A stretch of DNA of 39,482 nucleotides. It comes from Acidobacteriota bacterium. Lineage in GTDB: Bacteria; Acidobacteriota; Terriglobia; Acidiferrales; UBA7541. A program made the position numbers and the translations under genes. Position 1 is the first letter of the stretch. The number at the start of each line of letters is the position of its first letter. This document shows, piece after piece, positions 11,692 to 23,594 of the stretch. The notes beneath the pieces are model-generated. The model saw only the letters and a list, made by a program, of their open reading frames with translations, had not been told where the DNA came from and did not search any database. The DNA lies in contig QHYS01000076.1 in assembly GCA_003223325.1 (NCBI GenBank), positions 1 to 39,482 of the forward strand. The letters are read 5' to 3'.

Positions 11692-12207
11692 CTAATGCGC
11701 TTTGGTCGTTGGCAGGCCTGCATTCATCCAATTCGCGCCGAAATTCTCGGCGATGTGCACGACCTTTACGTTGGTAAAGCCCATGGCATGCAGTGCGTCA
11801 TAGGCGGGCTTGACGTTAGGGCACTTGTCCCACGGACAGCAACCGCAATACAGCACGATGAGCTGCTCGGGCTGTAGCGATGCAACGCGTTGGCGCAGCA
11901 GTTCCAGACCCTCCGGCCTAAAGCCCGGCCCAGCGTAGTAAGAACCGGGAATACGCGCCTGATCGTAAAAATTCTTGAAGCCCACGTGGAGCACCACAGG
12001 CTTCGTCCCTGTCTTTGATCCCTGCAGCAGCTTTGCCAGTACCTCCGGTTCGATCTGCACTGCGGTTGCAAGTTCCGCCGCCTTTCCGGCGCTTGGAACC
12101 TGCGCCGGCCTCCCCGCGGCGCTTTGAGTCTCCAGGGCGAGCACGATGCACGCCATAAGCGCACCCATCGCCAACGTTGCCGAAACTGCCAAACCCATAC
12201 GTTTCAT
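11692..12207 (-). CDS. Exported rhodanese-like protein
   Basis: The 171-residue protein has a signal peptide (residues 1-31, hydrophobic core LAVSATLAMGALMACIVLAL). A rhodanese-like fold follows: VVLHVGFKNFYDQARIPGSY at 71-90 and the active-site loop LYCGCCPWDKCPN at 119-131, where Cys121 is the likely sulfur-carrying residue, with three further Cys close by. Rhodaneses move sulfane sulfur or act as redox or binding modules; an extracytoplasmic role is inferred from the signal. The ATG at 12207 follows AAAGGAGA. The loop has more Cys than classical thiosulfate sulfurtransferases. Confidence 0.8.
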   Translation of the reverse strand: MKRMGLAVSATLAMGALMACIVLALETQSAAGRPAQVPSAGKAAELATAVQIEPEVLAKLLQGSKTGTKPVVLHVGFKNFYDQARIPGSYYAGPGFRPEGLELLRQRVASLQPEQLIVLYCGCCPWDKCPNVKPAYDALHAMGFTNVKVVHIAENFGANWMNAGLPTTKAH

Positions 12208-12429
12208 CTTTCTTCTCCTTTGCTCGCACGCTCGCGGCCTCCTGCTCCCGGATTCTATGCCTTGGACGTTTAGGCGCAGAGAAAGAGGGCTTCCCGCAAA
12301 GGCAGCGCGGCACAAAACGCGCTTCGACTGCGCGTCCCGACACGGAAATCGTAAAGGCATGATTTCCGAGACAACAAGGTCGGGACACTCTCCTTAGAAT
12401 AACAAACTGACAGCACCATTTCTGCTTTC

Positions 12430-22046: not shown

Positions 22047-22075
22047 TTGACCGACGAAGGTATCTTGGCTAGCAT
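22047..22075 (+). promoter_or_regulatory. Sigma-70-type promoter placing the start site on an ATG
   Basis: TTGACC (22047-22052) and TAGCAT (22070-22075) are separated by exactly 17 bp. Six bases follow the -10, and the seventh is the A of the ATG at 22082. Transcription would therefore begin at or next to that codon, giving a leaderless mRNA. Confidence 0.55.
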
Positions 22076-22081
22076 ACCCGC

Positions 22082-22174
22082 ATGATCCATCGCGCCTGCA
22101 CTTGCTGTTACGACGGTTGCTGTCGCGCCTGTTGTCGCAACAGCATGCCAGTATGCAGGTGCGTTTCTAAGTAA
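22082..22174 (+). CDS. Leaderless Cys-rich 30-residue ORF, candidate attenuator leader peptide
   Basis: The frame codes for 30 residues, nine of them Cys: CTCCYDGCCRACC in the centre and CRC near the end. No Shine-Dalgarno sequence precedes it, which fits the promoter that starts transcription on the ATG. An intrinsic terminator follows 30 nt after the TAA, then a small membrane protein and a putative sulfate exporter. Ribosome pausing at Cys codons when Cys-tRNA is scarce could control read-through. From memory, leaderless poly-Cys short ORFs act as cysteine attenuators in mycobacteria; none is known to me here. Alternatives are a metallothionein-like micropeptide or a chance ORF. Confidence 0.5.
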   Translation: MIHRACTCCYDGCCRACCRNSMPVCRCVSK

Positions 22175-22203
22175 CCGCAAGCAATCGCTACCGAAAGAAA
22201 CGC

Positions 22204-22240
22204 CCGCTCGCTGGCACCAAAACCAGCGAGCGGTTTTTTT
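22204..22240 (+). terminator. Perfect intrinsic terminator, likely conditional (attenuator)
   Basis: CCGCTCGCTGG and CCAGCGAGCGG form an 11-bp perfect stem with an 8-nt loop and seven T. Only 16 nt lie between the T run and the next ATG, and these hold its ribosome site, so no separate promoter fits in between. GCGTTTCT inside the leader ORF (22161-22168) can pair with AGAAACGC (22196-22203), directly abutting the terminator stem. Confidence 0.85.
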
Positions 22241-22256
22241 AGTAGAAGGGCAAAAT

Positions 22257-22427
22257 ATGGCACATGGACCTCAGCACGAACTCGTTTCCGACGAAGCGCG
22301 AACTCTCGCGCATAAAGCCAAGCAGGGATCCGCCTGGCCTATCTCGCTGGATGCCTGGGCCGTGGCGATCGCGCTGGCGCTGACGGCGCTGGTTTGGGTC
22401 GGCTGGATCAAGCGCATCCCGTGGTAA
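22257..22427 (+). CDS. Small membrane protein upstream of the YeiH-type transporter
   Basis: The frame encodes 56 residues. A polar N-terminus (MAHGPQHELVSDEARTLAHK) leads to a single helix (LDAWAVAIALALTALVWVG) and a short tail KRIPW. GAAGGG lies 7 nt before the ATG. It is likely a partner or stabiliser of the transporter 85 nt downstream; I have no family name for it. It can be reached only by read-through of the terminator just upstream. Confidence 0.65.
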   Translation: MAHGPQHELVSDEARTLAHKAKQGSAWPISLDAWAVAIALALTALVWVGWIKRIPW

Positions 22428-22440
22428 CAGAATCACGCGT

Positions 22441-22485
22441 GTCATTCTGAGGTCGCCGGGGCGACCGAGGAATCTCTCTTTTTTT
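22441..22485 (+). repeat. Dispersed imperfect palindromic repeat, copy 4
   Basis: GTCATTCTGA, the perfect inverted repeat GGTCGCC-GG-GGCGACC, then GAGGAATCTCTC. It sits between the small membrane protein and the transporter gene. Confidence 0.65.
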
Positions 22486-22511
22486 AGAAGGACTAACTAA
22501 GGAGCAATGAC

Positions 22512-23594
22512 GTGGCCACATCCGTAGCAATACCGGCGCCCTTCTCGGACAATCTCTTCAAGCGCCTGGCCCGACTCATCCCAGGCCTTTTTCTGCTGAT
22601 CGCTGTAGGCTACGCCGGAAAATTCGTAGAGCAGTCGATTGCGCGTTACGGCAAAGCGTACCACCTCACTCTGCCGAATATCGAATACGTCCTATGGGCC
22701 ATTCTCATCGGCCTCGTGATCTCGAATACCGTGGGCATTCCCGCAGCTTTCCGTCCGGGCCTCGCCACGTATGAATTCTGGCTCAAGGCGGGCATCGTCT
22801 TGCTCGGGTCGCGCTTCATCCTCGGGGACGTGCTCAAGCTCGGCGGCGTGAGCTTGGTTCTGGTGGTCATTGAAATCAGCATCTCGCTGCTCTTCATGAC
22901 CGCGCTCGGCCGCGCCTTCGGGCTCACTCCGAAGCTTACTTCCCTGCTGGCCATCGGCTCATCGATCTGCGGCGTCTCCGCCATCATCGCCGCCGAAGGC
23001 GCCATCGAAGCCGATGAAGAAGACACGTCCTACGCTATCGCCGCTGTGCTCGCGCTGGGCGCCGTCGCGCTCTTCACATTTCCGCTCATCGGGCATTGGT
23101 TGGGCATGAGCGACACGAGCTATGGACTGTGGGCCGGCCTCGGCGTCGACAACACCGCCGAAGCTACTGCTGCGGGCGCGCTTTACTCCGATGCCGCGGG
23201 CAAAGTTGCCGTTCTGGCTAAGACGGCGCGCAACGCCATGATCGGCTTTGTCGTGCTGGGCTACGCCATTTATTGGGCGCGCAAACAGGGCACGGCGGGC
23301 GTCGGCAATAAGGCCGCCTTCCTGTGGAGGAAGTTCCCCAAATTCGTGCTCGGCTTTTTGTTGATCTCCGCCTTGGCCACGGCAAAATTTTTCGACGGCG
23401 GCCAGCTCACCAGCCTCGCCAACCTCTCACGCTGGGCCTTCCTGCTGACGTTTGCCGGCGTGGGCCTGCGTACGAATATCGGCGAAATGCGCAAGCAAGG
23501 TTTGCGGCCGTTTCTCGTCGGCGCCATCGGCGAAGTCGCGGTCGCCCTGCTCACGCTCGGCCTCGTCCTCGGCGCCGCCCGCTTCCTGCATTAG
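22512..23594 (+). CDS. YeiH-family putative sulfate exporter
   Basis: The 360-residue, about ten-helix membrane protein belongs to the YeiH / Cons_hypoth698 family (PF03601). Family-typical parts are [74 protein letters not shown] and [17 protein letters not shown]. Members are annotated as putative sulfate export transporters, but direct evidence is thin. GTG 22512 follows AAGGAG at 8 nt; an ATG just before it runs into a stop. It shares a unit with the small membrane protein and, by inference, with the Cys-rich leader. No lesions are seen. Confidence 0.9.

Follow-up and report, generated by a model that had tools for sequence, protein, structure and literature searches.

The stretch of DNA analysed here, referred to below as the window, comprises 39,482 nucleotides of contig QHYS01000076.1 from an Acidobacteriota bacterium (GCA_003223325.1). 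Between positions 22,047 and 23,594 it carries a promoter, a short Cys-rich ORF, an intrinsic terminator and the genes for a small membrane protein and a YeiH-related transporter (Table 1), all of which the initial annotation had described and our analysis recovered. The terminator lies 29 nt past the stop codon of the leader ORF, and the region from leader to terminator folds with a z of -3.7 relative to shuffled sequences. The terminator scan, taken by itself, found 4 sites versus 3.8 expected, and promoter-like sites in the scanned 3 kb numbered 2 versus 0.7 expected. No Rfam 15 covariance model, whether riboswitch, T-box or other, matched the window above its gathering score. Elsewhere in the window, positions 11692-12360 of the reverse strand encode a secreted, rhodanese-like protein containing the motif CGCCPWDKCPN, which is possibly related to sulfur as well.

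Table 1. Features of the leader and the genes that follow it in the window
Feature	Positions	Strand	Remarks
Sigma-70-type promoter, TTGACC-17-TAGCAT	22047..22075	+	9/12 consensus bases; -10 element ends 6 nt 5' of the leader ATG
Leader ORF (putative sensor), 30 codons, 9 Cys, MIHRACTCCYDGCCRACCRNSMPVCRCVSK	22082..22174	+	close relative MIYRTCACCYAGCCCACCRGSVPACGCVSK in L016
Segment 1, possible protector hairpin	22091..22101	+	predicted to pair with 22154-22163 in the minimum-energy fold of the ribosome-free leader; weak
Segment 2, antiterminator 5' side	22146..22168	+	leader codons right past the last CC pair
Segment 3, antiterminator 3' side	22196..22216	+	shares sequence with the terminator's 5' arm
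Intrinsic terminator, stem 22204-22233, 11 pairs, loop of 8, T7	22204..22240	+	-22.5 kcal/mol
Small single-span membrane protein, C-terminus IKRIPW; putative transporter partner	22257..22427	+	motif kept before yeiH
PF03601 (YeiH-related) membrane transporter; putative regulated gene	22512..23594	+	PF03601 E 1.6e-78

The transporter had initially been called a YeiH-type sulfate exporter. Its relation to YeiH holds, with a score of 264.1 bits against PF03601 (gathering score 24.5). The model for YeiH putative sulfate exporters, TIGR00698, gave 133.2 bits, below its cut-off of 232.6, and "sulfate exporter" is only a family label here. The small membrane protein encoded directly upstream has no match in Pfam or NCBIfam. 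A motif of the form (L)SLDxWAVxxALLxALLVRxGxxKxxPW-stop stands directly before yeiH in at least 57 of the 79 loci compared below, and the small protein is probably a partner of the transporter.

In the window, 6 nt separate the -10 element of the promoter from the leader ATG, a spacing that predicts a leaderless transcript. The initial annotation had proposed such a start, and the promoter geometry of 43 leaders supports it. Promoters scoring at least 8 of 12 consensus bases precede 26 of the 43, compared with 2.4% of background ATGs, and promoters scoring at least 9 of 12 precede 16 of the 43 but none of 1600 background ATGs. Among the 26 well-scoring promoters, 22 have a distance of 6-8 nt from the end of the -10 element to the ATG, a geometry which suggests that leader transcripts begin at the ATG or within 1-2 bases of it.

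The Cys codons of the leaders are themselves unusual. TGT is used for 4 of the 9 Cys codons in the window leader, whereas the 17 window ORFs taken as genes contain 4 TGT and 44 TGC. The leaders overall contain 95 TGT and 59 TGC, and those of a group that ends in CCC and a stop (see below) 46 TGT and 4 TGC. Such a preference for a rare codon would fit a sensor of Cys-tRNA supply, and constraints from RNA structure could also contribute to it. Outside the Cys runs, the leader peptides of different targets have little sequence in common.

For comparison, 80 loci related to the window yeiH were retrieved, the nearest named records being Acidobacteria, and counts were made over 79 of them. Short ORFs within 650 nt upstream of yeiH were searched, with the reverse strand and dinucleotide shuffles as controls. 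The initial annotation had made its case depend on Cys-rich ORFs upstream of related YeiH genes, and these are present: short ORFs containing CCC occur at 25 of the 79 loci, whereas the reverse strand gives 1 of 79 and the shuffles 0.4. ORFs with at least four Cys in ten residues occur on the sense strand at 14 of the 79, compared with 1 and 0.65, respectively. For roughly half of the yeiH homologues, the 650 nt searched contained no Cys leader that qualified. In L016, the nearest relative, whose transporter is 97% identical, leader, terminator and spacing are all kept. Among the units in which a terminator was found, it lies 20-34 nt past the leader stop in most.

Some genomes without a direct leader have a Cys leader, such as MKTCCQMMCCPCACNAACRKTRISGQRSFRT, located 2-3 kb upstream, before a sulfite reductase gene with yeiH codirectional downstream. 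At L044 a Cys leader (-1166 to -1094) is followed by a cobA-like uroporphyrinogen methyltransferase gene and then by yeiH. When read by eye, genes for Rrf2-like regulators were seen just before yeiH at L025 (-797 to -290) and L061 (-744 to -240), loci where no direct Cys leader was found, and these regulators possibly represent an alternative control of yeiH.

The genome from which the window derives (G000) was searched for PAPS reductase/CysD and sulfite reductase genes, and this revealed a Cys leader with a terminator before cysDN, MIAGATAKFACRQMCCCLCCKSPLSGVPRCAI, and another before sulfite reductase, MGEWQIMCACCCRITAPRCAG. Together with the yeiH unit, G000 thus has at least three Cys leader units at loci of cysteine metabolism. 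In related genomes, Cys leaders precede cysDN, sulfite reductase, operons of sulfite reductase, cobA and yeiH, or yeiH itself. When the motif CCC-[RS]-stop was sought in 250 genomes of the class, most hits lay at yeiH, and others at a MoeB/ThiF-like and a TonB-receptor-like gene. A Cys leader ending in GGCCPLAACCCR precedes a MoeB/ThiF-like gene (L157), and in three genomes belonging to a single genus (L159, L160 and L161) leaders that end in (R)ES-CCC(C)R lie about 110 nt upstream of a carboxypeptidase-regulatory/TonB-receptor-like gene. A genome scan with TGYTGYTGYNNNTRR was rejected as a means of counting leaders because it was too unspecific. Several poly-Cys leaders in one mycobacterial genome have reportedly been termed a "ribulon" by Canestrari et al. 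(2020), and on the sequence evidence the window unit is best read as one member of an Acidobacteriota cysteine ribulon.

An antiterminator of the classical kind had not been found by eye at the time of the initial annotation. Computed folds now identify one, in which segment 2 pairs with segment 3 (22146-22152 with 22210-22216, 22155-22156 and 22158-22159 with 22204-22207, and 22161-22168 with 22196-22203). The last of these pairings had been noted as an 8-bp hairpin abutting the terminator; the pairing is confirmed, although not as a separate hairpin, since it lies at the centre of a larger antiterminator, which engages most of the terminator 5' arm as well. With a ribosome at codon 18 and the RNA extended to the terminator loop, the antiterminator has a free energy of -29.3 kcal/mol, compared with a mean of -17.0 kcal/mol for shuffled leader tails (z -4.7; 0 of 200 shuffles as low). 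Across most units this comparison gives z values of -2.2 to -6.8; at L059, L212, L216 and L266 the antiterminator was not significant against shuffled leader tails. When the ribosome is placed at the stop codon of the window leader, the antiterminator cannot form and about -6 kcal/mol is left in the computation. The computed switch point lies just beyond the last core Cys, which is codon 18.

The position of the ribosome also alters how far the terminator 5' arm is occupied by competing pairs. As the ribosome is moved from the last core Cys to the stop, the arm becomes freer in the other units too, most clearly in the sulfite reductase-yeiH units, where computed occupancy is 0.80 before the move and 0.05 after it; in L016 it drops from 0.78 to 0.02. 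The window shows a smaller decrease, from 0.82 to 0.59, the latter value being kept through weak alternative pairs. Equilibrium folding was rejected as a means of discriminating the two states, as the full-length RNA favours the terminator at every ribosome position, and the switch must consequently be kinetic and formed during transcription. Known attenuators fold during transcription. When the modelled transcript stops short of the terminator 3' arm, the antiterminator is the preferred fold, and for this reason a protector hairpin at segment 1 is a weak suggestion. Covariation of base pairs adds little: the sulfite reductase group shows a single double change, no more than shuffles would give, and the signal is weak because the antiterminator and terminator arms are nearly invariant.

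Taken together, the window unit is very probably a cysteine-dependent transcription attenuator that is on at cysteine starvation. In the proposed mechanism, transcription would start at the leader ATG or within 1-2 bases of it, and a ribosome would translate the nascent leader. With ample Cys-tRNA the ribosome would reach the stop codon and cover segment 2 (22146-22168), the terminator (22204-22240) would form, and transcription would end before the genes for the small membrane protein and YeiH. With scarce Cys-tRNA the ribosome would wait at the core Cys codons (6-18) and leave segment 2 free to pair with segment 3 (22196-22216), so that most of the terminator 5' arm would be taken and RNA polymerase would read through. 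The initial annotation had proposed a leaderless cysteine-responsive attenuator before a YeiH-type transporter; the attenuator is supported by leaders that recur at yeiH, cysDN and sulfite reductase, and the cysteine response itself is predicted. Sequence and computation show the elements of the unit, how they are conserved, which structures compete and where the Cys codons lie with respect to segment 2; we infer the leaderless start, the stalling of the ribosome, the direction of the response and the physiological role.

Other explanations of the unit were weighed against this one. It is very unlikely that the window uses translation attenuation as in mycobacteria, in which a ribosome stalled on poly-Cys would unmask the ribosome-binding site of the gene that follows, with the terminator playing an incidental part. 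There is precedent for such a device, as leaderless poly-Cys ORFs of M. smegmatis are reported (Canestrari et al. 2020, cited in PMC9031893) to act on downstream genes through the cysteine-dependent speed of ribosomes, and translation attenuation is the term applied to the mycobacterial system in PMC13236596. The yeiH leaders of the Edaphobacter, Terriglobus and Granulicella type, which end in CCC-R/S-stop, would also suit it, as no terminator was found after them. However, the window and its terminator-type relatives have a strong intrinsic terminator at a near-constant distance, and their antiterminator outperforms shuffled leader tails. Even in the CCC-stop group, the accessibility of the Shine-Dalgarno site with and without a stalled ribosome showed no consistent change.

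The CCC-stop leaders also bear on a Rho-dependent or dual device, in which unpaired, C-rich and G-poor RNA past the leader stop would load Rho when free of ribosomes, alone or together with the hairpin. The RNA following these leaders (L018-L092) has a C content of 0.35 and a G content of 0.16, compared with 0.27 and 0.32 in the upstream control, and in the terminator group the short spacer has a similar composition. Rho has also been proposed for the mycobacterial cys leaders (PMC1262725). From its composition, Rho-dependent termination is a possible output of the CCC-stop leaders that lack a terminator. The window terminator, however, is complete with its T7 run and needs no Rho, and composition is an indirect argument, and a Rho device appears very unlikely there.

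We consider it very unlikely that the ORF encodes a functional thiol or metal-binding micropeptide, or that its nascent peptide senses metal or redox state instead of cysteine supply. The density of Cys would be in keeping with either role, and PMC9973294 describes a nascent exported protein that senses metal, but the peptides share little between targets except Cys runs, the downstream genes (cysDN, sulfite reductase and yeiH) are those of cysteine synthesis, and the leaders are enriched in the rare codon TGT, as suits a sensor based on decoding. A chance pairing of an unrelated short ORF with the ordinary terminator of an upstream transcript has a negligible probability, for although short ORFs and hairpins are common and terminators alone are no more frequent here than expected, such a pairing conflicts with the recurrence at orthologous and functionally related genes, the strand bias, the shuffle controls, the promoter geometry and the fixed spacing of leader and terminator.

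If the window unit is a cysteine-dependent attenuator, its membership in a set of at least three (yeiH, cysDN and sulfite reductase) implies that yeiH would be expressed alongside sulfate assimilation under cysteine shortage, and the co-occurrence with cysDN and sulfite reductase suggests as much. Export of sulfate would make little sense in that state. A role for YeiH in handling sulfite during derepressed assimilation seems most likely, and the protein may instead be an uptake transporter. Experiments with YeiH of Salmonella point to sulfite resistance, and yeiH is activated there by sulfite through the LysR-type regulator YeiE (PMC12880088). The two systems are alike in that a YeiH-type membrane protein is linked to sulfite handling; they differ in that the window yeiH is apparently governed by an RNA switch that reads cysteine rather than by sulfite and YeiE.

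The analysis gave no support to YeiH as the sole sulfate transporter: SulP transporters occur in relatives, G000 has a SulP fragment, and genes resembling sulfate ABC permeases are present, with scores below the family cut-off. The only SulP match in G000 (C148:261-401; L205) lies close to the end of a contig and consists of a short fragment containing a stop, which may reflect an assembly gap or decay. The nearest relative, G003, has a full-length SulP gene. Among the SulP transporters checked, no Cys leader recurs just upstream.

A broader reading seems to us evenly balanced between being right and wrong. It holds that ribosomes alone operate a cysteine regulon in Acidobacteriota, in which leaderless Cys leaders with terminator outputs would jointly switch sulfate activation, sulfite reduction and YeiH with its small protein. 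YeiH-type proteins in this group would then be assimilatory, serving sulfite retention, uptake or overflow control, and not stress exporters, and the device would have an origin separate from the mycobacterial one and a different output stage. If this is true, an abundant soil phylum controls sulfur assimilation through cysteine sensed by ribosomes and not only through a protein regulator, attenuators in Acidobacteriota gain an assigned function, and leaderless poly-Cys sensing reaches beyond the Actinobacteria with a terminator-type output. The link to cysteine shortage, sulfate activation and sulfite reduction would in that case also provide a physiological clue to YeiH transporters and the conserved small membrane protein.

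Leader peptides with Cys codons were predicted upstream of cys operons in Actinobacteria in 2005, with no terminators or antiterminators found (PMC1262725), and were tested in M. smegmatis in 2020 by Canestrari et al. (PMC8764745), as cited in PMC9031893 and PMC13236596. The Acidobacteriota units share with the 2005 predictions the runs of Cys upstream of cys operons. With the mycobacterial poly-Cys attenuators they share contiguous Cys codons (CC pairs in the window leader), a leaderless start as predicted from promoter geometry, a location before cysteine or sulfur operons, and several copies per genome, as seen in G000. In contrast to the mycobacterial systems, which have no conserved terminators (PMC1262725) and reportedly act on translation, the units described here combine an intrinsic terminator with an antiterminator, both of which are present in the window. 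They also belong to another phylum, and the target in the window is a YeiH-related transporter.

The architecture is that of the trp, his and leu attenuators, with runs of the regulatory codon in a short leader ORF (9 Cys in 30 codons, conserved in relatives), an intrinsic terminator between leader and first gene, and Cys codons so placed that translation is coupled to a competing antiterminator that draws on the terminator 5' arm and, in the computed kinetic model, is governed by the position of the ribosome. It differs from them in its amino acid, cysteine, in a leader without a Shine-Dalgarno site and with a predicted leaderless start, and in its phylum. A survey of attenuators in 2010 contained almost no predicted Acidobacteriota attenuator with an assigned function (PMC2965389), and our literature search, which was of partial coverage, returned no report of cysteine attenuators in Acidobacteriota. 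Leader-peptide attenuation itself is known; the combination of cysteine, a leaderless start and an intrinsic-terminator output is a well-supported candidate for a new variant of it.
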